Below, piece by piece: positions 11,016-30,100 of a DNA stretch of 49,140 bases (its first letter is position 1; the number at the start of each line of letters is the position of its first letter). Location: NCBI GenBank assembly GCA_016845345.1, contig JAERSV010000059.1, positions 1 to 49,140 on the forward strand, given 5' to 3'. A program made the translations under genes and the position numbers. This DNA is from Methanobacteriota archaeon. Lineage in GTDB: Archaea; Thermoplasmatota; Poseidoniia; Poseidoniales; Thalassarchaeaceae. The notes below the pieces were generated by a model that saw only the letters and a list, made by a program, of their open reading frames with translations, had not been told where the DNA came from and made no database searches.

Positions 11016-11900
11016 TTACTCAATTTTGACTTGCAATCCTTGAACATCTGGCGCCCATTCAACAAGACTCCAGCCAGCCGCCTCACAAGCCGCTTCAACC
11101 GCTTCTCTGCGGCCAAGATTGCACAACAGCATAGCACAACCGCCGCCACCAGCACCCAGCGCTTTCCAAGCCAAGACATCCTTGCTAGCAAGTAGCGGGT
11201 CAACCACACCCCGGAACGGTTCGTGTAGTTCTTTGTCAAGCAGGTCAACCCCTCGACAGACCTCGTGAAGCGCCTGAATTACCTCATCACGCCTATCCTG
11301 TTGAACACCCCTCGCCATGCCACGTGCCGCCAAACGAATCGCCATCAAACCCTCTTTGACTTCCTCGTCACCTTTCCCATATCTCTCCCAGATATTCTTG
11401 TGTAAATCGCCCGAAACATGAGCAATATTTGAGTTGACGACAATCAATTGTCTCTGTAACCATTTTGTTGCTGATGCTAATGGAACAAGCGGCATTTCCT
11501 CAACATCATCCTGCATGAACATCAGATGATTCCAGCCGCCGTGTGAAGCCGCCCATTGGTCTTGGCGGCCACCTTTATTTCCTAATATTGACTCAAATTG
11601 GAATGCCTGTTCTGCTAACACTTTGCGCCCTGCATCATCGGTTTCCATCGCATTGATTGCAGCCATCAGTGCAACATTGATTGCACCCGTCGTCCCCAAG
11701 CCCGAGCCCACCGGTACCTCACAAGTGTAAGAGACTGAGAGTATCCCCTCATCGTCAACTTCTAGCGTGGCAGTAGCGTATTTATTGATGGCCAAATTGA
11801 CCACCTCACCGCCCACATCGTGTGTGTACGGAGAAACATCTGTCCACCCCCCTGCAAAGTCCAATCGCACTGGGGCCCGAGCCACTACCTTGCGCGCCAT
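11016..11900 (-). CDS. GHMP-family sugar kinase, heptose-7-phosphate kinase/fucokinase type
   Basis: I choose ATG 11900 (294 residues), which has GGGTGG just upstream. A TTG at 11951 would add 17 residues. Motif 1 (APVRLDFAGGWTDVSPY), motif 2 (PVGSGLGTTGAINVAL) and motif 3 (GAGGGGCAMLL) are intact. GGRQDQWAASHGGWN is a signature of the HddA/fucokinase branch, which phosphorylates D-glycero-D-manno-heptose 7-phosphate or L-fucose at C1. The product would be a substrate for a nucleotidyltransferase. The gene lies downstream of the three-gene surface operon on the same strand, so it might be read through from it, but its higher GC content and metabolic role suggest a separate history. Fold certain, sugar unknown. 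Confidence 0.85.
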   Translation of the reverse strand: MARKVVARAPVRLDFAGGWTDVSPYTHDVGGEVVNLAINKYATATLEVDDEGILSVSYTCEVPVGSGLGTTGAINVALMAAINAMETDDAGRKVLAEQAFQFESILGNKGGRQDQWAASHGGWNHLMFMQDDVEEMPLVPLASATKWLQRQLIVVNSNIAHVSGDLHKNIWERYGKGDEEVKEGLMAIRLAARGMARGVQQDRRDEVIQALHEVCRGVDLLDKELHEPFRGVVDPLLASKDVLAWKALGAGGGGCAMLLCNLGRREAVEAACEAAGWSLVEWAPDVQGLQVKIE

Positions 11901-11964
11901 GTCCACCCGGTAACGCCGTATCCCATCAACCCGACCCTCGAAATAGTCCAAATGCTGCCACTAA

Positions 11965-12693: not shown

Positions 12694-12717
12694 TGATTCT
12701 GCCGTCTCATTAACCTT

Positions 12718-13578: not shown

Positions 13579-15032
13579 AAGACCATAACCTCAGCTGAAA
13601 TTGAAGATTGTTGCTGATCCAAAGTCACAACAGAACCGGTTACCGGATACTGCTGTTTCAGATATATATCAACTGTCAACATAACCTCATAGACTGGTAC
13701 GCCACCAGATGAAAAAGGTATCATTGAACTGCCCTGCCCTGTGTTTGGATGTGGCCCACCACCCAATATAATCATGGGTTCAGTGACTAGGCAAGGTGTA
13801 GAAAGATATCTACAGGTGTGGGTGTTTGTGTTCGTATAAATCTGAGTGAAACCTGAACCATCAAATATAGAAATATCCCAACTCACATCTATATCGATGT
13901 ATTTGAACTGTACAGCACAGAGGCTTGAACTTACTGTTTGAACATACAACTGTATTTCGCCGTTGTAGTTTGAAAATGATACTGTACTCGGTTCTTTGCC
14001 TCTCAGAATGGAATAATCAAAAGAATCAGCAACAAATATTGAATTTAATGACGTACATAAAAAATCAGTCGAATCCAATATCTGGACTGTGTCCAAACTC
14101 TGTGTGCCCATATATGTTAACGGGGCTGAATTGGGGAGAATTCCCATGTCATTCAAAGGAGCTCGGTCCATGAACACGAATTGATAAAAATCCGAGTACC
14201 AATTGACCCCATCATAATAATCGGAGGTCATGGTGGCTTTCTGCCATCTACCGACTTCACCATAAGGAGAAAGAGAAACTGGATTAGAATCCCATTCTAC
14301 AGAGTAGGGTGTGGACCCTGTATCGTCTCCAATCCCATCATTATTTTTGTCTGAAAAATATTTTAATGAACTCAATCCAGAACTGCCATATCCATAACCC
14401 AACACTTCGAAATCTGTGTTCCACTCCTCCCAACACCCCGTCCCACCAAATGGAGAGTAACAGGTTGTGTCAATCCAATCATGCCTCCAGTCAACAAACC
14501 ATGGGGTTGAGATATCAAACCCATCATAGATGGGAGCGAAACAATATGTACCCCAAGCCGGTGAAATGTATGAAGAAGTAGACAAACTATTCGTCACTTG
14601 AATACGAGCTGGGTCTGAGCCAATACATGTTCCAGTATTACCCGGAGAGTGAACTGTATTCACACCAAATGGGGTTGAACAGTATAACTCGGCATGTTCT
14701 TTCAGAGCAAAACCAGGGCAAACCCTTAGATTCAGATTTGAATCACTGAAATGAATTGGTTGATTAATATCAAGATTGGAAATTACACCCCCCGAATCGG
14801 TAGATATCAGAATTAGTGCTTGATAATCAACTATCTGAGATTGACACTGTGATACTGAAAAATACACGCCATTCGTATCAACTTCATAACTAATCATCAA
14901 TCGGGGATGGCCGTCACAATCGGTCAGAATCACGTTCGATGATTGTTCAGCTTCTACAGTAATTGATGATGTTGAAATTATCAAGACTACCAGTAAAAGA
15001 ATCATCAGACCTAGTTTGACTAATTTAAACAT
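13575..15032 (-). CDS. Secreted surface protein of unknown function, first gene of surface operon
   Basis: A 485-residue protein with a clear signal peptide (KLGLMILLLVVLIISTSS, then VEAEQ). The mature part is rich in Ser, Thr, Tyr and Gly with scattered Cys. A Ca2+-loop-like DKNNDGIGDDTG follows a GYGYGSSGLSSLKYF segment, as in thrombospondin-type-3 repeats. No membrane helix is seen at the C-terminus, so the protein is either released or held by its partner. It is the promoter-proximal gene of the operon with a strong TATA box at 15087-15096. Base composition is markedly A+T-rich relative to the flanking enzymes. Function unknown; an adhesin or ligand-binding role is a guess from composition. 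Confidence 0.75.
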   Translation of the reverse strand: MFKLVKLGLMILLLVVLIISTSSITVEAEQSSNVILTDCDGHPRLMISYEVDTNGVYFSVSQCQSQIVDYQALILISTDSGGVISNLDINQPIHFSDSNLNLRVCPGFALKEHAELYCSTPFGVNTVHSPGNTGTCIGSDPARIQVTNSLSTSSYISPAWGTYCFAPIYDGFDISTPWFVDWRHDWIDTTCYSPFGGTGCWEEWNTDFEVLGYGYGSSGLSSLKYFSDKNNDGIGDDTGSTPYSVEWDSNPVSLSPYGEVGRWQKATMTSDYYDGVNWYSDFYQFVFMDRAPLNDMGILPNSAPLTYMGTQSLDTVQILDSTDFLCTSLNSIFVADSFDYSILRGKEPSTVSFSNYNGEIQLYVQTVSSSLCAVQFKYIDIDVSWDISIFDGSGFTQIYTNTNTHTCRYLSTPCLVTEPMIILGGGPHPNTGQGSSMIPFSSGGVPVYEVMLTVDIYLKQQYPVTGSVVTLDQQQSSISAEVMVL

Positions 15033-15061
15033 GAACTTGCCATAGAGATTTGACTTATAGA

Positions 15062-15077
15062 TAAATTGGTAAATTGG
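15062..15077 (-). promoter_or_regulatory. Tandem 8-bp operator-like repeat
   Basis: TAAATTGG is repeated head to tail at 15062-15069 and 15070-15077 (CCAATTTA twice on the transcribed strand). It sits 10-25 bases downstream of the TATA box, where transcription should start. That is a classic position for an archaeal repressor site. The operon's own winged-helix regulator is the natural candidate to bind it (inference). Confidence 0.5.
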
Positions 15078-15086
15078 TGAATACGG

Positions 15087-15096
15087 TTTATATAAG
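15087..15096 (-). promoter_or_regulatory. TATA box of the three-gene surface operon
   Basis: Minus strand reads CTTATATAAA, a near-ideal archaeal TATA element, 55-64 bases upstream of ATG 15032. This is the clearest promoter in the window. Confidence 0.65.
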
Positions 15097-15114
15097 AATT
15101 AACTGAGTTTACAA

Positions 15115-15140
15115 CCTTTGAAACAAATCTACTTCAAAGG
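15115..15140 (-). terminator. 8-bp stem-loop at the end of the M14-like peptidase gene
   Basis: CCTTTGAA (15115-15122) pairs perfectly with TTCAAAGG (15133-15140) over a 10-base loop. It straddles the stop codon of the minus-strand gene ending at 15134, and lies just upstream of the surface-operon promoter. It probably separates the two transcription units. Confidence 0.5.
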
Positions 15141-16234
15141 TCAGCAAGAGCATCATCAATCAGCGCTTGACCTCTAGCCATAATCATGGCTTTCCATTTG
15201 TCAGAATTAGGGCTAAACACCTCCACCAATCTTAGGCGCTCTGTTGAGTGCAGTTTCTCGCGCTTCCCAAAATTTGACCATTGGGTCATTCTATTCTCAG
15301 CGCGTAATGTCTTGATCACCTTGACTGGTTTGTAAGTTCCAAACTCTTGGGTAATCAATGTCCAATCAATATCTGTAAATCGTGCTGAAATTCCTTCGAG
15401 CATACCTCCGCGTATGCGGTAAGCAACACCAGCGTCTGGGTCTAAAGGCTGAATCCTTGGGCCATAACGTGCCCTAAGAGATGTGAAAGACTCCTCACCT
15501 ATTTCATTTGATACAAGCAAGGAATCCACGCCAAATGGCCCCAATCCGGTGTGAAAATCAATCCAGACTGCCCGCTTAACACTCGGTAGCACACCTGACA
15601 AATATTCTAACCAAAGTTTCGGCCCCTCATACATTTGGTGACCGCCGTAATTCATCGACTTAGGCCTTTCGAACTGACCCTCGGCAATGGTTTGTTTTGC
15701 AACATTGAATCCCATCTTTAGCATCACCAAGGCTGCTCTCAGTGTGAACATATCAAATGTTGATTTGTAAGAACGTGGATTTAGGAAGTCATCCAATTCA
15801 TGATACCTTTGAGGCTCGCCGACATAAGCCTCGCCGGGTGGTAGGAAATTTCGATTCAAGTCAGCATTATCCTCGTTTACTCTTCTTAACCAAGCAAATC
15901 CGTAAGGATTGATTGTATGTGCTATTACCAAACCCGTATCATCAGGGAATTGTAATTCACCTGCTGACAAACGCTCTAACATTCTAATCTGATTGGCACT
16001 TCCAGGAAACCCTTCAACCCCATGAACCCCACTTGTGTGTATCAGCATTCGCGTTGGTTTATCTCCTCCAATATAAGCGATATCTATTGTAAGGTTTTCA
16101 TCAGAAGGGCCGCGTACTGAAATTGGCAGGGATGTGATTTTTGCTCCTGCCTTCTCAGCAGCGTCAAGGAAACGCTGACGGGCAGTTACGTAATCAGGTG
16201 AAAAATATCGCCATAACTCATCCTTTGCCACCAT
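15134..16234 (-). CDS. M14-like zinc metallopeptidase, DUF2817 family
   Basis: A 366-residue cytoplasmic protein matching DUF2817, a branch of the M14 carboxypeptidase fold. The zinc motif HxxE is at residues 71-74 (SGVHGVEGFPGS), and the third ligand His sits in WIDFHTGLGPFG. DLNRNFLP supplies the usual substrate-binding Asn-Arg. The late Glu is probably in TLITQEFGTYKP. It starts nine bases after the GH38 gene, with a GAGG ribosome site overlapping the end of that gene, so the two are co-transcribed. Likely job: trimming a peptide or amide from glycopeptides whose sugars the mannosidase handles (inference from context). Substrates of this family are poorly known. Confidence 0.85.
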   Translation of the reverse strand: MVAKDELWRYFSPDYVTARQRFLDAAEKAGAKITSLPISVRGPSDENLTIDIAYIGGDKPTRMLIHTSGVHGVEGFPGSANQIRMLERLSAGELQFPDDTGLVIAHTINPYGFAWLRRVNEDNADLNRNFLPPGEAYVGEPQRYHELDDFLNPRSYKSTFDMFTLRAALVMLKMGFNVAKQTIAEGQFERPKSMNYGGHQMYEGPKLWLEYLSGVLPSVKRAVWIDFHTGLGPFGVDSLLVSNEIGEESFTSLRARYGPRIQPLDPDAGVAYRIRGGMLEGISARFTDIDWTLITQEFGTYKPVKVIKTLRAENRMTQWSNFGKREKLHSTERLRLVEVFSPNSDKWKAMIMARGQALIDDALADL

Positions 16235-16243
16235 GTTGCAACC

Positions 16244-19200
16244 TCACTTGAAGCGGAAAGTTACAATTTTCTTTGAACCAATGGTAACTTCCCAGCCTTG
16301 GTCAGTGATGTCTACAGCCTTGCCAGAGTTTTCCATCATGTCGCATTCATTACATTCAAACAGCGGCAAGTCAGTCTCAATTCTACCAGTCCAATCATGT
16401 TTGGTTGGATTGTAAATCCTAATTACTGTACCATCACCATCTTCGGCTGGCTTACAAGCTGACAACAAAGGTCGCGGCCCTTCGCCAACAAATCGTACCG
16501 GAGCGGCCGAGCGACCACGAATTCCCTTAGAAAGCGGGTCATCAAAGAATCCGTTTAGTTGCGGCTTCCCATGTGCTGGTAACAGGGTTGCCTGAGCGGC
16601 AAATTTCTCAGCCGATTCATGCACACCAGCCTGTGCCCACATTCCTTCGTAAGGCAGAATTCCCCAGCGCATCCAAAATTGACCTTGGCACTGAGCCCCT
16701 GGTGCTGGATAACAAGGACCAGCGCGGTTTCGCCGACTAGCAAATCCATCTCGGCTCAACCAACCTGTAGCGCGTAGCATGGTAATTCGTAAATCAAGTC
16801 CGTCTTTTCCTTTTGTTTTGGCAACTTCATATTCGTTTGAACCGGGCACAATTGCCGCCAAGCCACCAACTCGGTCTTGCATTGCCACGAACTGACTGAA
16901 ATGCTGAGTAGGTACAGATGGTTGTTCCCAATCACTCTCGTGAGGGATACTGGTCAACCTTGAGAGAACGTCGTAAACCCCTCCGCTCCACACCTTTTTG
17001 GGGTTCAACCCAGTTGGTAAACAGACCCTTAATCGGTGGTCCTCACAAGTATTGTTGATCATCGTTTCAATCTCAACTAATCTTGAACCTGAGCGTAAAG
17101 TAATGTAATGCTCTACTGTTACCCAGTCCTCTTCATCTGAGCGCTTTTGAGTTGAATCATTGAACGAAGATGGTAGCGACCAATGAACTTGCACAAGTAC
17201 TGTTGTCAACCATTCATTTTCCATCATTAAAGTGACTGAAGTTGAGCGTTTGTCCGCATCATCCAAGTCACAAATTCTTGTATCAACTGCTTCCACTCTC
17301 TTTTCCATCTTCGATCCGCGACCTGTTCCTACTTCCACAGGATGTCCTCCAGCAGACCAATCGTAGGAATCCCCAGCATCTTCTGAATTCTCTAATCTTC
17401 CCAAGCCTGTGTAAGTTCGCTTGCTTCCTGAATCAATTACATCAAAACGACCATCCTTACCAAATTGAACTCGAACAAGGCCGTTTTCCATCCAATCGGT
17501 GCGTCCTTGCCTACCACCTGTCTTGACTGGCTTTGCCGGCAAGTTTTGCGGTCCATGACCGGGTAAAATATGGGCAACATGAATTCCTGGTGGAAGATTG
17601 TGCACTAGCACCGCACCTTGTATTCGCGGCAGTTCAACATTGATTGCTCTGTCAGCGTGAACGTGTAATCCAAATTGTGGCTCTGTTAGAGCCGCCATTG
17701 TCTGTATGATGCAACCATCTGCTGGTTTTGATAACTCAACTTTTAGCGGTGTACCGGCTTGCAAATAACAACGATATGCCGGCAATGCCAAATCAACAGG
17801 AAGTGTTCCTGACCAAGCCACAGGTAGCGGATTGTGTAATAAAATTGGCACCGCATCACGGTCAACATGGTGCAAATTGAAAGCGGCACTCAACTCGTCT
17901 GTCGCATCATCTACTAACATCGTTGAAATCTCAGATGCGTGTTTGAACATCACTTCATTATCATCATGCACGGCGTCAACTGAACAACCACACACATCGT
18001 CATGTGGATGAGCCCTCAAAACCTCTCGCCATGCTAGGTTAAGACGCTCTTGTCTATTTCTCCCACCGTACGCCCGTGAGGCCGCGCTAAGTGGTTCAAC
18101 CCTGTCAGTTAAGGCGCGCATAGTTTGGTCATTAAGACGCTTCAAGTAGAGCCTTGCACTAAACACACCTGATAGGATGTTACGGTCCCAACCATCGTGT
18201 AACTCGCCTTGATATCGATGAATTTTCTTGCGTCCTATCCATGCTTTCAAGTCACTTGTAAATTGGGAAAAAGATGAATGTTTGAATTGAATTTTTTTGC
18301 CGAAATGGTCGTTAGCAGCAGTGATTAATTTCGGCAAGGTTGTTTGGGGTGCTGTATGGTCACTACCTTGTCCAAACAACAAGTCTTCTGGTCGCCAGTT
18401 GTAGGTTTTTTTAGCCATATCAAGCAATCTTTCCATTTTTGCCATTGCTGTATCTATGTTGATATTAGGTGAGTTTTTAGGGTCAAGCGGCCTATCTTCA
18501 AAGCCCCATGCCATCAAATTTGGATAGTCTGGAATCTGCTTGATTGCCAAGACTTCGGTTTCACCATCAGCAGCTTGCCAATAGAAGATCCCTTTGGCTT
18601 CTTCTGCGACCCAAGGCCCAGCACCCCGAGTGAAAATGAAAGTGTCAAGCCCGCATCCTTGAAGGATTGCAGGTAATTGCCCTACATGTCCAAATGGGTC
18701 GGGAACATAACCAACATCTGAGCATCCACCATGAGCCAATGCTACGCGCTTACCAGCGATCAGATTGCGAACAAGTCCTTCACCACCAACAATGTATTCG
18801 TCAGGTAAAACATACCAAGGGCCGATTGATAATCGGCCCGATTCAACAAGTGAAGTCAGCCTTTCACGATTTTCAGGCCGGACTTCCAAATAATCTTCAA
18901 TGACTACTGTTTGACCATCCAACTCAAAAGTGGGGAATGATTCTGGATTCGTCTCCATTAAATCAAGAAGGTCATCAACTAATTCAACCAATTTGTATCT
19001 GAACTGCTGGAAAGGAAGATACCAAGCCCTATCCCAATGTGTGTGGGGTACGATGTGACCAACTAACTTTGAGTCACCCATCTCACTCGCCGCTTCCAAA
19101 ACGGGAGTTTCTAACACAGGTTCTGCAAGAGGTGGGGCCGCGTTCCGCAAGGGTTTACGGAGTGGAGAGAGTTCACCGATTTCGACAACTTCAACCTCAA

Positions 19201-20050
19201 CTTCGTCACGTGGGTCTGCTTCTTTGTGTTCAACCGTAGGTCCGGATGATTCCGGTTCTGAGGAGGGTTCTTCCTCGGGTTCAGGTTCTTCCTCAGGTTC
19301 GGATGATTCTTCGGGTTCCGCGTCATCAGCAGGAGTTTCATCTTCTGTTGAGGTGTTATCTTCATCTACAGGAGTCATCCCAATAGCCCCGAAAGCAGCA
19401 GCCATGTCGAGGGCTTGAGGAGGACCGTCTGGACCAGCCGGAGAGGAAGGGGGGCCTGATGGTGGGCCTGATGGTGGCCCACTTGGCGGGCCCATCGGCG
19501 GCAACGAAGGTGAATCCGATGGGCTTGTTGAACTCACCATTGCTAATGCATCATCCATTTCAATGGATTCTGCGCTATCCTCTGCCCTATCTTCGTCGCT
19601 ATCGTCAGCATCTGAATCCAATTCATCCTCATCCACTGATTCATCGGATTCATCTGCAAATTGAGACGGTTCCTCTTGACTTTCTTCTTCAGCGTTGAAA
19701 TCTTCTTCTTCTGGCTCAATTGGAACTGTGCTTGTTGGAGGATCCACTGGCGGCATTGATGGTGGTCCACCACTCATTGGGGGCCCCGAACTTGAAGGAC
19801 CACTCGGACCTGAACCTGGAGGACCCACTGGCGGCATTGAAGGTGGTCCACCACTCATCGGTGGACCTGAACTTAGAGGACCACTCGGACCTGAACTTGG
19901 AGGGCCCCGCGACGAGCCTGGAGGACCTCGAGAAGAACCACTTGGAGGGCCTCTTTGAGGAGGACCTGATTTGCGGCTCGGTGGACCTGAGGGTGGTCCA
20001 CTTGGAGGGCCGGCCGGCCCGTTCTTCTTCACCCGTCTCTTCCTCGCCAT
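16244..20050 (-). CDS. GH38 alpha-mannosidase with long disordered N-terminal extension
   Basis: A 1268-residue protein. Residues 1-110 are Gly/Pro/Ser-rich, 111-165 very acidic, 180-212 again Gly-Pro-Pro-Ser, and 228-290 Glu/Pro-rich, so about 330 residues precede the enzyme. From about 330 the GH38 catalytic domain begins. Zinc ligands are in PHTHWDRAW (His338, Asp340), the nucleophile is Asp451 in VPDPFGHVGQ, and the last His is in AHPHDDVCGCSVD. GPWYVLPDEYIVGGEGLVRN is typical of bacterial/archaeal members such as mannosylglycerate hydrolase. It hydrolyses alpha-mannosides with retention. There is no signal peptide. The basic start MARKRRVKK followed by disorder might tether it to a surface or partner. 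It lies between the fusion enzyme and the DUF2817 peptidase in one operon. Confidence 0.88.
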   Translation of the reverse strand: MARKRRVKKNGPAGPPSGPPSGPPSRKSGPPQRGPPSGSSRGPPGSSRGPPSSGPSGPLSSGPPMSGGPPSMPPVGPPGSGPSGPSSSGPPMSGGPPSMPPVDPPTSTVPIEPEEEDFNAEEESQEEPSQFADESDESVDEDELDSDADDSDEDRAEDSAESIEMDDALAMVSSTSPSDSPSLPPMGPPSGPPSGPPSGPPSSPAGPDGPPQALDMAAAFGAIGMTPVDEDNTSTEDETPADDAEPEESSEPEEEPEPEEEPSSEPESSGPTVEHKEADPRDEVEVEVVEIGELSPLRKPLRNAAPPLAEPVLETPVLEAASEMGDSKLVGHIVPHTHWDRAWYLPFQQFRYKLVELVDDLLDLMETNPESFPTFELDGQTVVIEDYLEVRPENRERLTSLVESGRLSIGPWYVLPDEYIVGGEGLVRNLIAGKRVALAHGGCSDVGYVPDPFGHVGQLPAILQGCGLDTFIFTRGAGPWVAEEAKGIFYWQAADGETEVLAIKQIPDYPNLMAWGFEDRPLDPKNSPNINIDTAMAKMERLLDMAKKTYNWRPEDLLFGQGSDHTAPQTTLPKLITAANDHFGKKIQFKHSSFSQFTSDLKAWIGRKKIHRYQGELHDGWDRNILSGVFSARLYLKRLNDQTMRALTDRVEPLSAASRAYGGRNRQERLNLAWREVLRAHPHDDVCGCSVDAVHDDNEVMFKHASEISTMLVDDATDELSAAFNLHHVDRDAVPILLHNPLPVAWSGTLPVDLALPAYRCYLQAGTPLKVELSKPADGCIIQTMAALTEPQFGLHVHADRAINVELPRIQGAVLVHNLPPGIHVAHILPGHGPQNLPAKPVKTGGRQGRTDWMENGLVRVQFGKDGRFDVIDSGSKRTYTGLGRLENSEDAGDSYDWSAGGHPVEVGTGRGSKMEKRVEAVDTRICDLDDADKRSTSVTLMMENEWLTTVLVQVHWSLPSSFNDSTQKRSDEEDWVTVEHYITLRSGSRLVEIETMINNTCEDHRLRVCLPTGLNPKKVWSGGVYDVLSRLTSIPHESDWEQPSVPTQHFSQFVAMQDRVGGLAAIVPGSNEYEVAKTKGKDGLDLRITMLRATGWLSRDGFASRRNRAGPCYPAPGAQCQGQFWMRWGILPYEGMWAQAGVHESAEKFAAQATLLPAHGKPQLNGFFDDPLSKGIRGRSAAPVRFVGEGPRPLLSACKPAEDGDGTVIRIYNPTKHDWTGRIETDLPLFECNECDMMENSGKAVDITDQGWEVTIGSKKIVTFRFK
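19740..19901 (-). repeat. 81-bp tandem duplication inside the GH38 extension
   Basis: Two copies at 19740-19820 and 19821-19901, nearly identical, encode the repeated peptide GPPMSGGPPSMPPV (residues 62-75 and 89-102) with its linker. The Gly-Pro-rich tract around it shows further degenerate copies. Recent slippage or unequal exchange is likely. Confidence 0.75.
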
Positions 20051-20106
20051 GTCGCTCGTTTAACCGGTCTGCCTATCAATTCTATTGAGTAAATCCGTAA
20101 AAATCA

Positions 20107-22194
20107 CTAACCAAGGTAATTGGCAAGGGATTCATTGACTCCATGCGCGATGGTTTGTAGCGCTCCCCAAGTACCAAATTCATCTACAAATGTGCTCAAT
20201 TGTATCGCCGCCAAATCGCTTGAATCTCTGTATGTAAGAGCGCTCTTCATTGTTTGAACTAAGGCATCGTGTGGTAATCCATGTTTGAGACACAAATGCA
20301 GTGGTCCTAAAATTCGGTCATGCAAACCCAATTTTCGAATCGGGTCGCGAGCATTTCTTTCAATCGGGTCACGAATGGTTACATCCTGATATTTGGCTAA
20401 AGCACGATTTGACCAATCCCTCTGTTCACCCTCATCAAATCCAAATTCTGCAATCAAAGCAGCCGATGATTCAACTCCAACTTGGCTTGCTAAATCGGCG
20501 ATTTCTGAATCATTTGCGGCATCACTCAGCCAAACATATCCTCTTTCTGCTCCGAGATAACACACTGCTGCATTGATTGCATTATAGGTATACAATTTTC
20601 TTGTTAATTCCACAGCAAAATTCGGTTTGGCTTCAAATCCAGAAACACTTGAGACTAATTCGGCCCGTGTCAGTGCATCAGCATCAAGGGGTAATGTCCA
20701 ATGATCTTGAACTTGTACTGTTAAAGGACCATAATTTGCAATCTGCTCTTCCGTTGGCTCAATACAGGAACGAAGAACCTGTGCTTGAGCAACTCCAACC
20801 TTTGTACTGCTGATATGCTCTCTCACAAGTTTAGCAGGTGCAGGGTGGTTTTCCGCCAAAATGATGTCAATATCGCGGTCTAAATCAGAAATAGATTGCG
20901 CCCAATTTGCTAATCCATTAGCACCTAATGATGTCATAATGAGAGATGCGTCATGCAGACGCCACTCATCAGCAGAAACAGTATAGTCAGAAATAACTTC
21001 AATTTCACCAGTTGCTAAATTACTAATTGCGTAGGTTCCATCCTCAAGTGCATTTACCAAGTCTAAATTAGAATCTACAAAGTGAATTCGCCAACCAGCG
21101 CGCAACAATAGTTGACCGAGGAAACCTCTCCCCACTTTTCCTGCACCAAAAATCACCGCCAAAGGACGTTGGGCTAGTTTAGCCACACCCAAAACACTGA
21201 CCTCTTGTCCAGCCCGAAGTATTGCCCCTCTTGTTTCAACAATTTGTGGGATTAATGCCAGACCACCACCTATCAACATCTGATTGTTTGGGAACATTGT
21301 TCGAACCTCATCTATTGGCTGATTTAGTTCTCTAATCGCCTCCCATGCTGGACCATTGACATCATTACTATTTCCGCTGTTTTTTTCATTTTCCAATTGG
21401 GAAATGAACTTTTTTACCGCTTCTTCACTCGGTTGAACATTGATTTTTTTTGCAAGAGTTCCCCCCCCTGTTGATGTTGATAAATAGCAAAGCGCTGGTA
21501 ATTTTCCGATTGGCGGTAACCAACTGAACCCTGCCATCGGCTGGCTTCCGACTAATCCAATATGTTCACTAGTATTTGCGAGATTAAACAAATCTCCTTG
21601 GTTGGGATTTAAGCCTATCACGCCGGCAGTTAAATCATCACAACCACAAATCACCTCAGCACCAATACAGATTCCAGAAATTTCTGAGCCGGCGTTATTG
21701 ACTAACCCAATTACCTCATCAGGGTGGAAAAAATTGCCCTCCCCGAAATACCCACGCATTGAGCGAGTATCACGACCAATCACCCCGGTTAATTGCCAGT
21801 TCAGGAGGTCTTTGAGTTGCACAGGAACACCATCACCTATTGGACCATTTTCTTTTTCCCATTGGGCTAAACGAGATGGAACCCACGCTCTATTTTTTGT
21901 CAGAATGTGGTCATTTTCAATTTCACGCTCACAACCCTCTTGGGTCTCATCAAACCATGAAATTTTGGAACCGATAACCTCTCCATCCCGAATTACAATC
22001 GCAGATGGGCCGTGTCCTGTAATACCAACTCTGACGATGGATTTACCGCGCCCGTCAAGCCAATGCAGAAGATTATCCCAAAGACTCCCAGAAGTTGGCC
22101 AAGAATCCATTACCCATTCATTTGAATTGTCTAGCAGTAGCACTTTTGTAGCACTTGTACCTACATCAATTCCGAGTGTCAATGGGCCTTTCAT
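20107..22194 (-). CDS. Bifunctional FGGY carbohydrate kinase / mannitol-1-phosphate dehydrogenase-like fusion
   Basis: A 695-residue fusion. Residues 1-342 are a compact FGGY kinase. LGIDVGTSATKVLLLD binds phosphate, GITGHGPSAIV and SWFDETQEG contact substrate, the catalytic Asp is likely at 186-187 (CGCDDLTAGV), and GGGLALIPQIVETRG leads into VLGVAKLA, the adenosine motif. Residues 345-695 match mannitol-1-phosphate 5-dehydrogenase (MtlD). They show the NAD loop FGAGKVGRGFLGQLL, AENHPAP at the ENM position, RKLYTYNAIN, IRKLGLHDRILGP and HGLPHDALV. In MtlD the active site reads KxxxxNxxH; here the His is Asn541 (K533, N538). A polyol could be phosphorylated and then oxidised to a ketose phosphate by one chain. 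FGGY enzymes are usually about 490 residues, so this kinase half is short. The join is in frame with no stop. Confidence 0.85.
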   Translation of the reverse strand: MKGPLTLGIDVGTSATKVLLLDNSNEWVMDSWPTSGSLWDNLLHWLDGRGKSIVRVGITGHGPSAIVIRDGEVIGSKISWFDETQEGCEREIENDHILTKNRAWVPSRLAQWEKENGPIGDGVPVQLKDLLNWQLTGVIGRDTRSMRGYFGEGNFFHPDEVIGLVNNAGSEISGICIGAEVICGCDDLTAGVIGLNPNQGDLFNLANTSEHIGLVGSQPMAGFSWLPPIGKLPALCYLSTSTGGGTLAKKINVQPSEEAVKKFISQLENEKNSGNSNDVNGPAWEAIRELNQPIDEVRTMFPNNQMLIGGGLALIPQIVETRGAILRAGQEVSVLGVAKLAQRPLAVIFGAGKVGRGFLGQLLLRAGWRIHFVDSNLDLVNALEDGTYAISNLATGEIEVISDYTVSADEWRLHDASLIMTSLGANGLANWAQSISDLDRDIDIILAENHPAPAKLVREHISSTKVGVAQAQVLRSCIEPTEEQIANYGPLTVQVQDHWTLPLDADALTRAELVSSVSGFEAKPNFAVELTRKLYTYNAINAAVCYLGAERGYVWLSDAANDSEIADLASQVGVESSAALIAEFGFDEGEQRDWSNRALAKYQDVTIRDPIERNARDPIRKLGLHDRILGPLHLCLKHGLPHDALVQTMKSALTYRDSSDLAAIQLSTFVDEFGTWGALQTIAHGVNESLANYLG

Positions 22195-22218
22195 AATCTC
22201 ACCAAAATAGCTGCGATT

Positions 22219-23049
22219 TCATCGAAGATTCTCCGGCTCACTTGGCCATTCTATCGGACTCCAACCAAGAGCCGAAATACCAGGTTCTAGGTCAATGAAC
22301 CTAGCTGGCGAATCGGATTGAGCTGCGGTCAAAAGATATCCCGAAATGTTAGGATGACCTTCGCAAGATTGTGAATCCCAAGAAGAGAAATCTGCAACTA
22401 CTGCTTTGCCAAAGAAGTTGGCAACGTCTGCTTGTAAAAATGCGGTTGCTTGTAACCTGCCACCTCGTTCCCAATGCTCTGATTCATTGGGAATTACCGT
22501 CCCAATTCTTACGACTATACATTCCATCCCATACCCCCGTGAGTAATACTGACCGAGTCGTTCGACGAATACCTTAGTCTCGCCATAGGTGCTAGTCGTA
22601 GAAGTTCCGTGGCTCACCCCCAAAAGTTGCCCTTCAAGAAAACCTCCGGGCAAGAGTTCAGCCTCAAGACCAACTTGAGTAAGACCGGAGGAAGATAACA
22701 CCACTCTGCGCACGCCACATATCTTGGCATTACGCATGAAATTAGTGGTTACCAAAATGTTGTTTCTCAACATACTCTCATCGCTATTTGAGGGGTTTGC
22801 ATCTGCCGCTAAATGGACTACTACTTCGCAATCTGCAAGCATCAATTGCCATTCTGAATCAGTTGCTTCTGCTAAATCAAAGTGATGAGTTACGCGGCTT
22901 GGAGCGCTTGCATCATCGGTATTCCTACCCGCTTCCATCCAATCTTCATGTGGCCGATCAATCCCAATGACTTCGTGGCCTTTAGCAACTAGCCTGTCAT
23001 AGACCACTCCGCCGATTAATCCGGCCGCTCCCGTTACTGCCACACGCAT
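22219..23049 (-). CDS. NAD-dependent epimerase/dehydratase-type SDR, possibly uronate dehydrogenase-like
   Basis: A 276-residue extended short-chain dehydrogenase. GAAGLIGG near the start binds NAD(P), DLAE and VVHLAADANP follow, and the catalytic pair is in STYGETKVFVERL (YxxxK) with the Ser in VVLSSSG. VRIGTVIPNESEHW after it resembles the VRIG segment of uronate dehydrogenases, which oxidise glucuronate or galacturonate to the lactone. An epimerase is the alternative. It is the first gene of the operon leading into the kinase-dehydrogenase fusion (24-base gap), the GH38 mannosidase and the M14-like peptidase, so it acts on a sugar released by that set. Family secure, reaction not. Confidence 0.8.
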   Translation of the reverse strand: MRVAVTGAAGLIGGVVYDRLVAKGHEVIGIDRPHEDWMEAGRNTDDASAPSRVTHHFDLAEATDSEWQLMLADCEVVVHLAADANPSNSDESMLRNNILVTTNFMRNAKICGVRRVVLSSSGLTQVGLEAELLPGGFLEGQLLGVSHGTSTTSTYGETKVFVERLGQYYSRGYGMECIVVRIGTVIPNESEHWERGGRLQATAFLQADVANFFGKAVVADFSSWDSQSCEGHPNISGYLLTAAQSDSPARFIDLEPGISALGWSPIEWPSEPENLR

Positions 23050-23138
23050 CTTTCGTCAATGTCCGATACGGCGACATCATATTGACCTAATCACTATCTC
23101 GGATAGGACATAATCGCGACAATCATTGAATTCATTCA

Positions 23139-23162
23139 GTCCGAGACGTTAACGCCTCGGAC
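23139..23162. repeat. 24-bp near-perfect palindrome
   Basis: GTCCGAG (23139-23145) and CTCGGAC (23156-23162) flank a central CGTTAACG palindrome, with one mismatched pair between arm and centre. It lies 90-113 bases upstream of the SDR start. It could be an operator for the sugar operon or the end of the upstream transcript. Confidence 0.5.
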
Positions 23163-23197
23163 ATTCGTTTTAGCAGAAGATTTGGCCAAGCCAAATC
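23160..23197. repeat. Hairpin element, copy B of a shared intergenic motif
   Basis: GACATTC, GAAGATTTGG and then GATTTGGC (23179-23186) pairing perfectly with GCCAAATC (23190-23197) over CAA. Block order and sequence parallel the element at 7207-7256. Confidence 0.5.
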
Positions 23198-23367
23198 GAT
23201 TTCTAATATTCTCACTTAAATGAAAACCTCAATGATAGTCACTTAGATTGGAACTCTTCGGTAATCATCCAATTTAAAGTGAATGGCTACATTATTGTAA
23301 GAAATATTGCACCCGATACAAGGTCTTGATATTTCATCCCCAACGTTGATGGGTTATCAAAACTTAG

Positions 23368-25290
23368 TTAAATCTGTAATTTTTTCAGAAATAAGACAAG
23401 TAGAATGAATGTCGCGACAAAGCCTACTCCAGCTAGAACTGCTTTCCTCTCATCAATCTGATAGACATCAATAGATGAGGTGGATTCCCCATCCTCGTTT
23501 ACTGGTGCTTCATCCCCATCTAAGCCGCTAGAGTTTCCGTTATTGCAGTCATTAGGATATGCAAAGTCGTTGGAATCATCGTCTGGGCAGTCGGCCGCAT
23601 CGCTCGATTCTATTGATGTTGGATCATTCTCATCTGTCCCGTTTCCGATTGGTTCTGAATTATTCCCAGCCTCAGAGGTTTGATACTCTTCATCACTAGT
23701 CGATGAGTTATTTCCATCTGCTGAAAGATTATCTGAATTGTTGTTTTCCGAATTTGACTGGTTTTCGGTTGGAATAGGTGGTGAATCAAATTCTATCTGT
23801 TGAGTAGGAATTTCAGAATAATTTCGTAACTCAAAAAACACCGATGGGGCAGTAAAATTGAATGAATAGCCAGTATAAGGGACCAAAACATTCGCCTGAA
23901 TTTCAATTCTACCAGAGTTTGCTTCATACCATGAAACATTGTGTCTACCCACGGAATATACGGTACCATCACCGTCGATTATTGAGACCCTTAGAAACCC
24001 CGAGTAACATTCAGTTAATTGAATGCCTTGTTCAATAGAACTCGGTCTTCCCAATTCAACTCGCACATTCACTAACGGATTAAAATGAATTGAACGGTTT
24101 TCTTCGTCTATCGCGACGAAAATAATGCTGTGATTAAATTCTTTACTATAAGGCCTAACTCCCTCTCTCCTATCATCAGATACAGCTAATATGAACGATG
24201 AACCGTCGTTCAAAGCACAGCCTTTCACTACGCTACGCATGCCGGGTAATGTGACATTACCTATCCTTTTGAGTTCACTTCGATTCTCCAATCGACCAAT
24301 CGTTAATGTCAGTTCATCATCTCCACTATCCGGGTTGATTATATTCCTACCTTCAAAGACTGTGACCCGGTTGCTATCATCAACAGTGATTACTGATTGA
24401 TGTTTAATTGGGATTGGTTGAATACAAGGGTCCTCATCTGCTGAATTTAGGATTACTAAAGCTCTATCAGAGTATGATAACCCACAATAATAACGAATAT
24501 TTCCCGGATTGACTGTGATATGGTCTAGAATCAAGATGTCATCTTCTGAAAGTAATAAATTAGATCTGCTTGAGAACAAATATGAAGAGATATTAGTTTC
24601 GAGGAAGGATTCATTCTCCCCGACTCTACCAACAGAAATATTTCCAGGATTAAATGGGTCTTCTGTTGTATTAGAATAATACGAACCCGTTAAGCCCCAA
24701 ATTGCCCCACCGTCAGCGGTTTGAAGTAAGGTTGGGCGCATCGGATAGGTTTTGATCTCAACAAGTTCCCCTGATTGATTGAACAGAATAATCGCGCCGC
24801 AAAATTCCTGGCCTAAGTGACAAATAGTTTTTTCACCCTCAATCCAAAAATATCTCTGAAACGACATAGAAACTGCTATCATATCGTGATGCCAGACGAA
24901 TGAGGCAGAGTCTGTGCTAAACCAGATTCTAAAACCGCGTATGTGAATTTTTGTTACATTTGAATAATTATCCGCATCATAGAAGTGGATTTCTCCAGTG
25001 AGAGATGTAAAGTTTGAAGTTTCTCCACTCTCATCCACATCATACCGATTTTCCGCAAGAAATGTGCCGTCGAGTAGGGTAACCAGCACTTGATCGTTTG
25101 ATATCGAGCCGATAACTCCTGAATGATTCTCTTCTACAGAAATTATTGAAAGGTCAGTCAAAAATGTTGAATTTTCGCTATCATTTACATCATTGGTAAA
25201 AGTGTGATATGATTCACCTATCTCACTACCACCGAAGGTCAAGGAGGAACTGATTAGAATGAATAATAAGAGGAAATCCCTCAACTTCAT
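23368..25290 (-). CDS. Exported C-terminally membrane-anchored surface protein, unknown function
   Basis: A 640-residue protein: signal peptide (FLLLFILISSSLTFGG), a roughly 500-residue all-beta exterior rich in Asn-X-Ser/Thr sequons, a Ser/Asn/Asp/Glu-rich low-complexity stalk at about residues 510-610, and a C-terminal membrane helix (AVLAGVGFVATFILLVLFL) ending in KKLQI. This is the layout of a stalked archaeal surface protein. Short recurring strands such as RVTVFEGRN and TVYSVGRHNVSW suggest beta-propeller-like repeats, but I cannot assign a family. It starts two bases after the stop of the gene at 25293, so the two form an operon. The DNA is A+T-rich. Function unknown. Confidence 0.75.
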   Translation of the reverse strand: MKLRDFLLLFILISSSLTFGGSEIGESYHTFTNDVNDSENSTFLTDLSIISVEENHSGVIGSISNDQVLVTLLDGTFLAENRYDVDESGETSNFTSLTGEIHFYDADNYSNVTKIHIRGFRIWFSTDSASFVWHHDMIAVSMSFQRYFWIEGEKTICHLGQEFCGAIILFNQSGELVEIKTYPMRPTLLQTADGGAIWGLTGSYYSNTTEDPFNPGNISVGRVGENESFLETNISSYLFSSRSNLLLSEDDILILDHITVNPGNIRYYCGLSYSDRALVILNSADEDPCIQPIPIKHQSVITVDDSNRVTVFEGRNIINPDSGDDELTLTIGRLENRSELKRIGNVTLPGMRSVVKGCALNDGSSFILAVSDDRREGVRPYSKEFNHSIIFVAIDEENRSIHFNPLVNVRVELGRPSSIEQGIQLTECYSGFLRVSIIDGDGTVYSVGRHNVSWYEANSGRIEIQANVLVPYTGYSFNFTAPSVFFELRNYSEIPTQQIEFDSPPIPTENQSNSENNNSDNLSADGNNSSTSDEEYQTSEAGNNSEPIGNGTDENDPTSIESSDAADCPDDDSNDFAYPNDCNNGNSSGLDGDEAPVNEDGESTSSIDVYQIDERKAVLAGVGFVATFILLVLFLKKLQI

Positions 25291-25292
25291 AA

Positions 25293-26964
25293 TTAGTACA
25301 CCACCATATTACTCACCAACGGGTCAAAGGAACGATTTCCTCCGGAATTTACTCCATCACACCGGACAATTAACAGTGCTTCAATTGGCGGTCCTGTCAG
25401 GCTCGCCTGACTATGATAAGTTTGATTGCCAACCGTTTGGATATAGAGGTTATTTGGAAACAGGCGTTGTTGCCAAATGGTATTTGAACCTTGGTAATTA
25501 GTAGTAAAAAATGAATCTACACAGATACTGTGATCTACCGATGACTCACCTCCCATCGTATCGTTGAAGCTTGCCGTAAAATTATAATGATATGTGTTCG
25601 GTTTAACCACCTTGACTGACACCCAACCTTGAAATGATTTCTGCTGTCCGTTCACATCGATGTACTGGCAACCGAAATCCTGAGTATTATTGTTAATAAT
25701 ACTAGAAGATATCATCACATTATTTACCATTCCTAATGGACATTTTGAATCAAATTGCTCAGTGAACCAGAGCAATCTAGATGAACGATTATCTCTGTGA
25801 TATTGAACCGGATTGATATTTAATAACGAAAGGGCATTGTGAACTCCATAGTAATCCAATAATGTTAGATTTTTGTTGCTATAATCTTCGGGAAAATACC
25901 CGATATAGCTAATATGTTGAGTTTTATTATGTAAAGATGTTGCAATACCAGCTAACATGATTCGTTTTGCATCCCGATCATGAATGGGAACAATTTTCGT
26001 TAATGCTATCCCCTCATTTGATAGAGAAGTAGAGTAAGTCCAATTTGTACCATTATATTCATTTGAGATGAATACTGCAATTCCTTTCGGCGGAGAACAA
26101 TGACGGCCCGAACTAGTTGACGAGTCAAGACAGGAAGTTCCGCCAATCGAAAGTGCTAAATTGGAATTGTTGAAGAAATCATCATCAGAATTTGAGATGT
26201 TGATTATCATGAAAGATGACACTAATAATGGTTCAACCATCACACTATCATTATACTCACATAATTTTCCACCAAGTTGGCCAGTGTAATTAAGAAAACC
26301 TATCGAGCCACAATCGGATGCCTCTCTATCTGCCAAGAAAAATACTGTCTTTTCTGGTGGGTATGGATGATGATAGATACCAGACCCTGAATAAGAAGCA
26401 GTAACATAAGAAATACTTGGACTGACACTAGAAAACGAATCATTGGCGCCGGCGATTAGAACATGAGTCAAGTTGTCATCAATTTTGAATGACTTAAAAT
26501 GTGTACCTTCTGAATAGGAGGCATATCTCGCAGTGCCAATATGATTCCAGTTGGTCTTGTTGGTGATTAATGGGTCCACATTTGCATAAAACAATTCAAC
26601 ACCAGCCGAATCATTTTCCCCACAGAATTGAGATGGACAACTAAAATGATCAAGCCAACCACGTAAATTTACATCATGTCGATGAATGCTGGAATTATAT
26701 TCCAATATCACCCACGAATTGATAAAAACCCCTGAATCTGACTCTTGACAGATTCCTTGACTCGTAGCATTTGGAGTAGCAATAAAGTCATCGGAAACCG
26801 AACCCGAGAAGTTGTCTTGTGGGCAGCGTGAAATGTTAACAATCCCCGAGAGACGATGAGGGAATCTAACCGGCGGCAACCGAATTTGGCAAAAATGAGA
26901 ACATTGAAGATGGAATAATTGATAAAAGGATAAAAAAAGCAACGAAGGTCACTCGTTTTAACAT
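25293..26964 (-). CDS. Exported surface protein, probably frameshifted just after the signal peptide
   Basis: The long frame (about 549 codons ending at 25293) begins with no sensible signal peptide. ATG 26964 in the neighbouring frame encodes a textbook one (MLKRVTFVAFFILL, then SVAAG) and hits TAG at 26868-26866. Removing one base between about 26895 and 26868 would join that signal to the long frame just before RFPHRLSGIVNISRC. The exterior part has many Asn-X-Ser/Thr sites, several Cys, and segments such as IMLAGIATSL and HVLIAGANDSF that repeat in style, suggesting a propeller. No C-terminal anchor is seen. Whether this is a sequencing error, phase-variable switch or decaying gene cannot be told from one sequence. 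Partner: the 640-residue gene two bases downstream. Confidence 0.65.
26866..26964 (-). other. Out-of-frame signal peptide fragment of the surface protein
   Basis: A 32-codon frame: Met-Leu-Lys-Arg, a hydrophobic core (VTFVAFFILLSII), then a polar end (PNSVAAG) fitting signal peptidase. A TATA-like CTTTTATTAATT on the plus strand at 26986-26997 lies 22-33 bases upstream, consistent with a nearly leaderless transcript starting at this ATG. Confidence 0.55.
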
Positions 26965-27083
26965 CAATTGATACTAAAAGTTCCTCTTTTATTAATTCTC
27001 TCGCGGATCAATTGGTTCTTAATTCGTCAAAATTTGAATGTTAATACAAAATATAGTGAAGAGTTCTGTGGAAAATTTCGAGC

Positions 27084-27107
27084 AGGTAAACGATATCGTA
27101 TTTACCT
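27084..27107 (+). promoter_or_regulatory. Dyad upstream of the M60 peptidase gene
   Basis: AGGTAAA (27084-27090) and TTTACCT (27101-27107) flank the inner palindrome ACGATATCGT, with a one-base bulge. It ends 20 bases before ATG 27128 and lies in the divergent spacer shared with the frameshifted surface gene. It is an operator candidate. Confidence 0.5.
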
Positions 27108-27127
27108 AACAGCATTTCGCAATTACA

Positions 27128-30100
27128 ATGATTAGTAAAGAAGCGTTGGCGATTGCCGTTGCCGCCTTATTTTTCCTAGTCAGTTTAGGCGGTGCTGGAT
27201 TCTATATCGCCACTCAAAGTCCAGAAACCCCATCAGTCGATTCAGGTGTGGACACAAACTCAACAGAACCTGTTTCTGAGCCGCCTCCAATCATTTGTCT
27301 TGACCATCAGCGAAACATATTGGACGAGAATAACTCTAGAGTAATCGGGTGTGACAATATCATCCCACCAAATAATGCGTCGTTTGAAACCGGCTCAATT
27401 CAAGTAACTCGTGGCTCAGTTACCGGAATCAACTGGACGATTGATGGCGACGGCGGCTTTGGAACAAAGGCAAATTGCTCCAACTCTTTTGCCCGTTTGG
27501 GAACTGGGCCAAGCCAAGGTCAAAATTCAGAATATGATTGGATTATCATAGCCAACGAAATTGGAATCACGTTGTGCGATGTGGAAGTCACCAACCAAGG
27601 TGGTTCAACAAATCTCTCCCTAGAGATTATTGTGACAGATATGGCGCCTTCTTCTTTGAACTATCAACCATCAACCCACATCCTAACCAAAGGTGACCCA
27701 TTCACTATTTTCGCTAATTATGAACAGGGTGAGCCGACCTCTTGGGAATCAAGCCCTGCAATGCCTCCTGGACTTGAATTGCGTGATGACGGGGCAATTA
27801 TTGGTGCACCTACTACCCTCATGCCAGCCACGACTTACACCATTACGGCAAGTAACGATGGAGGAAGTGATACAACCGAGATTACAATCACTGTTCACGA
27901 CCAAGCACCAAATTCAATCTCCTATCTTGATGAAGATTTGATTCTCACCCTTGGAGAGCAAATGAATGACATGGCCCCTAGTCACAATGGGGGAGATGTC
28001 TTGAGTTGGGAAGTTGACCCACCGCTTCCATCTGGCCTGAATATTTCACGTGTCACGGGACGAATCTATGGGACCCCAGATGTTCTTTATGAGCGCTCAT
28101 CACACCTGATTTACGCGAATAATTCAGGAGGTACTGCGGCGATAGTTTTGCAAATAACAGTCAATGACAAAATAGTTGAATCGATTGATTATGGTAGTCA
28201 AGATTTTGACTTAATTTTTGGTGTATCAACGCTAAATATCACACCAACAACAAGTGGCGGCACTGCTGTTTCTTGGAGCATTCAACCCCCACTTCCATCT
28301 GGACTCCAACTCAATACCCAAAACGGAGCACTAACAGGCAGTGCTGACGAAATAACGCCATGGATTAACTACACTGTTTGGGCTAACAATTCGGGTGGCT
28401 CTTTCGAGGCTTGGTTAAACATCAGAATCGCCAACATGACACCCGATAACATCTCATGGGAAGGGGGATTAGAACAGATTCTAGCGGCAAATAAATCCGT
28501 TTCAATTTCAGCAATCAATAACGGACCAACAATTGACAGTTGGGAAATCGCACCAAAACTTCCTGATGGGCTATACCTATCTCGAACCAACGGCACAATC
28601 TTTGGTTCACCGAATGGGAGAGACGGAGTCAACTTTTCTCGCCATGCTTGGACAACACACACTATTTGGGCAAACAATTCCGGGGGAGAACTTGCACTGA
28701 ACCTTACTTTTGCAATCCATGATTTAGCACAAGATCACAATGAGTTAACCAAGCGGCCGATCGGTACTGTGGATTACGGTGGCGCTTGGCCTTCACTTAT
28801 TCTACCAATTGGAGAATGGTCGTTTAGTCTTGGAATTGACTGGGATAACCGGCCCATTTCTGCTGCTTCGCACGCCGGAAAAGGAAGAATTGTTGGCTAT
28901 GGGCACGAAACAATGGTTGCAAGAACAGGGAGCGATCGTCGAGCAAATCTTAGCCTCAATGCTTTGGATTGGGTTTGTGATGGTAACGGTAAAACTGTTG
29001 GATTAGAATCTTCATTCAATGGCTGGCAGAATACACTTCTTTCAGAAGGCTATGCCGTCGTAACTAGTGCAACACCTGCAGACTTAGTAAACTTGGATTG
29101 TTTTGTGACTGAATTCTGGAACTCATATTCTGACAGCGATAACCTCGCCATTACTAACTGGTTAGAAGATGGTGGAGGGTTAATTATGGGTGGACACGCA
29201 TGGTATTGGTCGTACTCAAATAGTGATGCAGCACACAATTATCCCGGCAATAAAATTGCTAAATCAACTGGTCTATTTATTTCTACATCTTCAGGCTCTG
29301 CCACCTTTGCAGTGAATGCCAATGAATGGGGTGACCTCTATCGCTTACATGGCGCACTTCCTCTAATCGTTGACCATGTAGATGGAACACAGATGATGAC
29401 CCAAAATGATGCTACTATCGGCTCTAAAACCGTCTCGCTGTGTGTCTCAAATCTGCCCCTTGATTACACCGGTGTCTGGGATTCACTACGCAAGATGAGT
29501 AATGACGCCGGATGGATTCATATTGATTCAAATAACCAATACACAATGAATGCTGATGAAGTTGATGATTTAATTCTCAATATTCAAGAACAATTGATGC
29601 TAAAATTACCAGCAGATGAACTTGAACCCCATCCTTCGCACAGTTCATTCCCGGGTTCAGTAAATCCTACAGCCCCAAGGCCATTGAGAAATGTCTCAAT
29701 TAACGGGTCTTTTGCTGGTCTGCCAAGCCAATTTGGGTATGCAAATGCGAGGTCAGCAGGGTGGATGACAACGGGAATGTATGCCCCTGCTGGAGAAGTA
29801 ATCAATATCACAATCCCACAATCTATGGTGAATCAGGGTGCATCAATTCTGATTGGGTCTCACTCAGATTCACTGTGGGGAAAATCAACCCTTAACAGGC
29901 ATCCAAAAATCACTCGGGCTTGGTCAATTAAGAACTCGTCTTTACAAGTTGGTAACTCGTTTGGTGGGCCGATTTATGTGACGATTCCAGCCGGATCTAC
30001 ATTCGGAGACTTCAATATCACCATCGAAAATGCTGTCGACATGCCACGTTATATTCATGGCGTAACCAATGTTCACCAGTGGAATATGGTTACGCGAAAT

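Follow-up and report, generated by a model that had tools for sequence, protein, structure and literature searches.

Why would a marine archaeon carry, in one chain, a sugar kinase and a dehydrogenase resembling the one that acts on mannitol 1-phosphate? The question is raised by a 695-aa open reading frame (ORF) on the minus strand of contig JAERSV010000059.1 (assembly GCA_016845345.1, family Thalassarchaeaceae), of which positions 1 to 49,140 were analysed (49,140 nucleotides; hereafter the window). Marine Group II comprises uncultured, very abundant archaea, in which the dehydrogenase has already been counted as mannitol-1-phosphate 5-dehydrogenase (PMC6461757); the Joint Genome Institute gives the same name to some whole fused proteins. 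We propose a two-step reaction: ATP-dependent phosphorylation of a free sugar alcohol (likely a hexitol) by the kinase half, then NAD-linked oxidation of the resulting polyol phosphate to a ketose phosphate by the dehydrogenase half. We give this conversion of polyol to ketose phosphate by one protein a probability of about 0.5. That both halves are active, that the route runs in the catabolic direction and that one half passes its product to the other are all predictions.

The fused architecture is near certain. An earlier note, made from the sequence of the window, had described a kinase and a dehydrogenase in one chain with both active sites kept, and the single ORF and the catalytic residues retained in both halves bear this out. 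It had also proposed a search for fused and split forms across Poseidoniia. We found the protein in 16 of 59 relatives and in 31 of the 292 genomes of the class, its own genome included. Both halves lie in one open frame in 28 of the 31 carriers (same contig, same frame length; some frames are cut by contig ends), so the halves are not joined in this assembly alone, and in three carriers (G019, G116 and G141) they are separate adjacent genes. The kinase stop and the dehydrogenase start share one base (TGATG) in the G019 type, as seen in L084, and 47 nt separate the genes in the G116 type (L092). Among 7,991 candidates scored in the protein search there were 302 matches; of the best 120 of these, which were listed, 108 are full-length, the window's own copy counted. 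Residue counts over 108 proteins refer to this set, i.e. members of at least 640 aa aligned over both halves. A scan of the collection gave 38 loci, 37 of them from archaeal bins named as Thalassarchaeaceae, Poseidoniales, Marine Group II, Thermoplasmata or Euryarchaeota, with two assemblies contributing two pieces each. The 38th, an Erysipelothrix fragment of 34 % identity, was dropped.

The predicted structure of the kinase half shows a two-domain actin-like kinase fold. This fold, the DxGT loop, the KD pair, the catalytic Asp and the GGG are shared with E. coli XylB, glycerol kinase and SePSK (5htn). We take Asp10 to be the phosphate-loop Asp, Asp187 the catalytic base and Gly309-Gly311 the GGG of the ATP site. 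In contrast to known FGGY kinases, the sequence falls below the Pfam cut-off: FGGY_N scores 13.1 in this copy against a cut-off of 28.8, and the label is found on 18 of the 108 homologues, the other 90 having no FGGY Pfam label at all. Passing FGGY_N matches occur in four of 17 genomes, all four at the fusion locus, in a search that is blind to FGGY kinases as diverged as this one. The kinase is also short. Separately encoded forms have 463-476 residues and the shortest fused form has 306; 31 of the 40 measured fused forms lie between 306 and 398, compared with 484 for XylB. The shortened kinase (about 342 residues here) had been said to keep all ATP and substrate motifs. This is correct for Asp10, Asp187 and the GGG, but the FGGY_C signature stretch (GERxP...), which appears as GxRG in longer relatives, is deleted in this copy. 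A pseudogene or decaying kinase was considered and found unsupported: the catalytic residues are identical in 108/108, dN/dS is 0.10-0.17 and the 306-residue form still models as a full fold. Purifying selection acts on both halves, both model as complete folds, and we consider it quite probable that both are active.

The dehydrogenase half passes the Pfam cut-offs of PF01232 (27.5, cut-off 27) and PF08125 (Mannitol_dh_C; 68.9, cut-off 30.7), the Rossmann and C domains of polyol-specific long-chain dehydrogenases/reductases (PSLDR). We compared it with the S. aureus mannitol-1-phosphate dehydrogenase, whose functional residues, including Asn119 in the oxyanion hole, have been described (PMC6623548), using a phmmer alignment that is gapless over the Lys200-Arg294 stretch. 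Lys533, Asn538, Arg613, Arg616, Arg620, Lys621, Arg627, Glu448 and Asn449 match the S. aureus enzyme in 108/108. Among them are the catalytic Lys and two Asn of PSLDR (Lys533, Asn449 and Asn538) and the phosphate-binding Arg283, Arg287 and Arg294, retained as Arg616, Arg620 and Arg627. The arginines point to a phosphate-bearing substrate, and Asp374 suggests NAD rather than NADP as the cofactor.

The rest of the site is altered. A study of the brown-algal enzyme describes KxxxxNxxH as a signature common to the whole PSLDR superfamily and MVDRITP as the best-conserved stretch (PMC4022671), and the clade to which the fusion belongs has neither; position 541 is Asn in 108/108. Among 69 further proteins (P0125-P0193, some of which are fragments or archaeal copies that are cut or lack the fusion) this position is Asn in 54, Ser in nine, His in four and a gap in two. 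Glu479 is found in 61 of the 63 Asn/Ser541 proteins (one Gln, one gap) and in none of the four with His541. All 40 fused rows of that alignment combine Asn541, Glu479 and His450, and a few unfused dehydrogenases of the Asn/Glu type have Anaerolineales, Bryobacteraceae and Burkholderiaceae as source names. A private mutation to Asn541 is thus ruled out: the earlier note read the residues correctly (NAD loop, Lys533 and Asn538 kept, His replaced by Asn541), and the change is shared by an entire clade, bacteria included, rather than peculiar to this copy; the clade breaks a signature ascribed to all PSLDR, and Glu479 accompanies the change. Near Glu479 the phmmer alignment runs two to three residues off register relative to hhalign and MAFFT, so that the canonical counterpart is either Val of E. 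coli MtlD (hhalign, MAFFT) or S. aureus Asp150 instead of Val153 (phmmer). A change from Val to Glu is therefore alignment-dependent; the link between Glu479 and Asn541 is unaffected. The changed residues point to an unusual sugar end or proton relay, and the site argues against a plain mannitol-1-phosphate label. The designation as mannitol-1-phosphate-dehydrogenase-like holds for fold and family, but 'mannitol' rests on equivalogs that are missed by far (137.5 vs 356), and mannitol itself is a doubtful substrate. Within the phylum, 10 of 292 genomes have a Mannitol_dh_C match at 1e-8, nine of them these archaea; the tenth, G442, has a divergent protein in which KxxxxNxxH is retained, as judged by eye. 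In plasmids, the bacterial unfused clade was sought with the dehydrogenase; this gave 26, 26 and 28 records with at best 36.7 % identity among the matches listed, the annotated ones being mannitol-1-phosphate 5-dehydrogenase, and the kinase query had no match among plasmids.

In many bacteria the substrate of MtlD is supplied by the phosphotransferase system (PTS) (PMC11784389). PTS_EIIC was found in none of 17 genomes (13 carriers and 4 non-carriers, 77-96 % complete) and in 7 of 14 control genomes. This would explain an ATP kinase joined to MtlD, as the kinase would take over the phosphate-adding step done by PTS uptake in bacteria. An ATP kinase ahead of MtlD is what a PTS-free cell would need, and this is our main argument, although not a proof, for the polyol reading. 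The earlier suggestion that the order of kinase and dehydrogenase fits a two-step route is supported. A plain mannitol-1-phosphate dehydrogenase label does not say where the phosphate comes from if no PTS is found; the kinase half would supply this missing step and make of the vague 'mannitol metabolism' a prediction for one protein, in a group whose diet has been argued mostly from annotation. A separate idea, a mannose bypass via mannitol for want of an isomerase, was dropped: type I phosphomannose isomerase (PF01238) was found in 0/17 genomes, but the PGI/PMI type (PF10432) in 15/17.

Comparison with known systems shows what is particular to the fusion. MtlD of S. aureus (5jnm) and Shigella (3h2z) has His208 where the fusion has Asn541 and DRIVP where it has SCIEP with Glu479; in contrast to MtlD, the archaeal protein is joined to a kinase, stays under all nine equivalog cut-offs and occurs where no PTS EIIC was found. 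The bifunctional MtlD of Acinetobacter (7ocn) likewise carries a second catalytic domain N-terminal to an MtlD-type dehydrogenase in one chain, but there it is a HAD phosphatase serving mannitol synthesis, whereas the archaeal domain is an FGGY-fold kinase with predicted breakdown; the fusion would be its mirror image. The NCBIfam model of that bifunctional enzyme matches weakly (33.1 vs 800 bits), and the N-terminal half here has the FGGY fold, not HAD. The brown-algal mannitol-2-dehydrogenase SjM2DH (668 aa, PMC4022671) is also a PSLDR with an N-terminal extension; unlike the fusion, its extension of about 150 aa is of unknown kind, KxxxxNxxH is kept and the substrates are free mannitol and fructose. 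Archaeal use of polyols is known from Haloarcula, which breaks down mannitol and sorbitol with an ABC transporter and cytosolic enzymes (PMC11519228); there oxidation comes first and ketohexokinase second, whereas in the fusion phosphorylation would come first. The earlier note knew of no described FGGY-MtlD fusion, and we came across neither the kinase half nor the fusion in the literature searched, including the available parts of PMC6461757; by term counts, polyol, mannitol and fusion are absent from the main text of the FGGY family paper (PMC3245297). Fused enzymes of known folds are already known, and what is new here is the pairing of kinase and dehydrogenase and the altered site.

The two halves seem to have different histories. 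Quick trees were built with 40 of the 108 fused proteins (73 rows for the dehydrogenase, 45 for the kinase); long branches are present, and the tested groups were named after the trees were seen. In the dehydrogenase tree 28 short-kinase proteins are not grouped, and a topology constrained to unite them is rejected (28 rows vs 16; approximately unbiased test, p-AU 1.8e-8). In the kinase tree the short-kinase proteins do form a group (support 100). A constraint that imposes on this tree the 20-row dehydrogenase clade, whose support in the dehydrogenase tree is 84, is rejected (p-AU 1.2e-11, 44 rows). From this conflict kinase cassettes were likely, if not provably, exchanged between dehydrogenases. 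At L084:3707-6213, and in the same layout in L085, a separate long kinase precedes a dehydrogenase whose tree neighbour P0013 (support 100) has a short fused kinase, which probably reflects a swapped cassette or a fission. Tentatively, the fusion could be a PTS-free one-protein polyol module of Marine Group II that combines the smallest FGGY-type kinase on record (306 residues) with a re-wired dehydrogenase site (Asn541, Glu479), its cassettes re-paired repeatedly by recombination at the joint.

The gene neighbourhood was compared over 38 loci (37 and the window) with mechanically called ORFs. Of the 33 loci with any upstream ORF, 32 have a short-chain dehydrogenase/reductase (SDR) gene as the next one, in the same orientation. 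Downstream of the fusion, a glycoside hydrolase family 38 (GH38) gene is found in 30 of the 32 loci where at least one ORF is called on that side; of the 24 with at least two such ORFs, 21 have DUF2817, and all 22 with at least three have a GHMP kinase. The row is presumably co-transcribed. Profile matches of the SDR in the PDB are epimerases and uronate dehydrogenases, and its best NCBIfam match, far under the cut-off, is Azf-type glucose-6-phosphate dehydrogenase. The PDB entries nearest to GH38 are 3lvt and 2wyh, presumably the Enterococcus and Streptococcus enzymes. The GHMP kinase is nearest to heptose kinases and fucokinase, and the DUF2817 protein had no match in the PDB by sequence. 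The link to glycans that the earlier note saw in the SDR, mannosidase and peptidase is supported by this operon.

A set of genes for a PfkB kinase, a 2-keto-3-deoxy-6-phosphogluconate (KDPG)-type aldolase and a dehydratase adjoins the SDR in L073. Two genomes of the window's genus have this set at a distance of 14-15 kb from the fusion. In G003 and in the window's own genome it is on contigs other than that of the fusion, and in the latter galactonate-dehydratase-like and KDPG-aldolase genes stand at a contig end (G000:C54:1621-3422, L119). Two of three tested dehydratases pass the NCBIfam cut-off of 311 for galactonate dehydratase (314.4 and 315.3; L092 scores 290.8), and the PfkB kinase, a presumed 2-keto-3-deoxygluconate (KDG) kinase, and the aldolase stay under all NCBIfam cut-offs. 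Of 13 carrier genomes 10 have the dehydratase, against none of four hand-picked non-carriers. The fusion therefore likely belongs to a sugar-scavenging island with at least one oxidative sugar-acid route beside the predicted polyol route, which leaves room for a substrate other than mannitol.

Several points weigh against the polyol reading. The kinase half lacks the FGGY_C stretch around XylB 'FLPYLSGERTPHNNP' and has some 120-130 residues fewer than its separately encoded relatives, and FGGY kinases act more often on ketoses than on hexitols. In the dehydrogenase half all nine MtlD NCBIfam equivalog cut-offs are missed (best 137.5 vs 356 bits), and the PSLDR signature His is absent, with KxxxxNxxN instead of KxxxxNxxH in 108/108. 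PTS_EIIC was the one PTS family sought, in genomes 77-96 % complete; no polyol transporter was recognised, a big membrane protein (c8) being without Pfam match; and the sugar-acid route of the island shows no evident need for a polyol. The structure models are of the ligand-free protein.

The preference of FGGY enzymes for ketoses would suit a use in reverse: fructose, tagatose or a pentulose would receive a phosphate from the kinase half, and reduction of the resulting ketose phosphate by the dehydrogenase would yield a polyol phosphate, serving osmolyte or redox needs. The S. aureus MtlD is bidirectional depending on pH (PMC6623548), and legends of the Marine Group II genome paper label the gene once as 'mannitol synthesis' and once as mannitol degradation (PMC6461757). 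However, the mannosidase-bearing gene row looks catabolic and none of the neighbours with a Pfam match was recognised as a phosphatase (several neighbours had no match), and we regard this direction as unlikely. In a sugar-acid variant, the kinase would act on a (keto)aldonate and the dehydrogenase at C2 of a 6-phospho-aldonate, feeding the galactonate/KDG route. The altered site with Asn541 and Glu479, the distribution of the dehydratase among carriers and non-carriers and the score of the genus dehydratase (314.4 vs 311), which stands beside PfkB and KDPG-aldolase genes, are consistent with it. Against this, carriers G010, G020 and G030 have no dehydratase match at E 1e-20, an acidic Glu479 would be unfavourable near a carboxylate, and polyol phosphates are the substrates of the nearest characterised kin, which makes the variant quite improbable. 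It is very unlikely that the halves serve unrelated substrates or that the shrunken kinase is merely regulatory or a scaffold: the shortening from 463-476 to 306 residues and the conflicting trees, with partners probably swapped, would fit, but the invariant catalytic residues, the low dN/dS, the full fold of the shortest form and the adjacency of the genes where unfused speak for a working pair. An assembly or annotation artefact is already refuted by one stop-free frame across many separate assemblies.

Table 1. Features of the fusion protein and neighbouring genes in the window.
Feature	Position	Strand	Evidence
FGGY-fold kinase / MtlD-like dehydrogenase fusion, 695 aa	20107..22194	-	
Kinase half, residues 1-342	21169..22194	-	
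Dehydrogenase half, residues 346-695 (domain proper 346-690)	20110..21159	-	Pfam, PDB, hhalign to E. coli MtlD E=4.7e-47
Kinase Asp10, DxGT phosphate loop	22165..22167	-	identical 108/108; XylB Asp aligned
Kinase Asp187, aligned with XylB Asp233	21634..21636	-	identical 108/108
Kinase Gly309-Gly311	21262..21270	-	identical 108/108; XylB GGG aligned
Dehydrogenase Glu448-Asn449 = S. aureus Glu118-Asn119	20848..20853	-	
Glu479, SCIEP motif; co-occurs with Asn/Ser at 541	20758..20760	-	
Lys533 = S. aureus Lys200, general base position	20596..20598	-	
Asn538 = S. aureus Asn205	20581..20583	-	
Asn541 where S. aureus has His208	20572..20574	-	
Arg613, Arg616, Arg620, Lys621, Arg627 = S. aureus Arg280, Arg283, Arg287, Lys288, Arg294 (substrate and phosphate binding)	20314..20358	-	
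SDR (sugar-dehydrogenase/epimerase type) opening the predicted operon, 24 nt from fusion	22219..23049	-	
GH38 alpha-mannosidase, 56 nt downstream of fusion	16244..20050	-	
DUF2817 protein	15134..16234	-	Pfam
GHMP sugar kinase, operon end in other genomes, here after three inserted ORFs	11016..11951	-	

Scans for promoters and terminators stayed at chance level, and Rfam gave nothing at gathering score in 14000-28000. The three ORFs inserted between DUF2817 and the GHMP kinase (11965-15032) encode a regulator with two helix-turn-helix stretches and proteins of 286 and 485 aa, and are found only in this window among loci holding both flanking genes. Two conserved proteins without Pfam or NCBIfam match (8422-9999 and 10036-10950; clusters in 14 and 21 loci) lie by a second GHMP kinase. 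Divergent from the operon is a large M60 (enhancin-type) peptidase with Ig-like repeats (27128-31186), whose cluster c6 is present in 14 mapped loci including the window. About 300 N-terminal residues of the 1268-aa GH38 ORF are of low complexity, rich in Pro/Gly/Ser and Glu; uncut GH38 ORFs elsewhere have about 943 to 1260 aa, and the length of the extension seems variable. At L064:3996, L078:7024, L090:12676 and L092:12802 a large protein is inserted between the fusion (or the split genes) and GH38, and the one tested, from L092, has a CD36 match.
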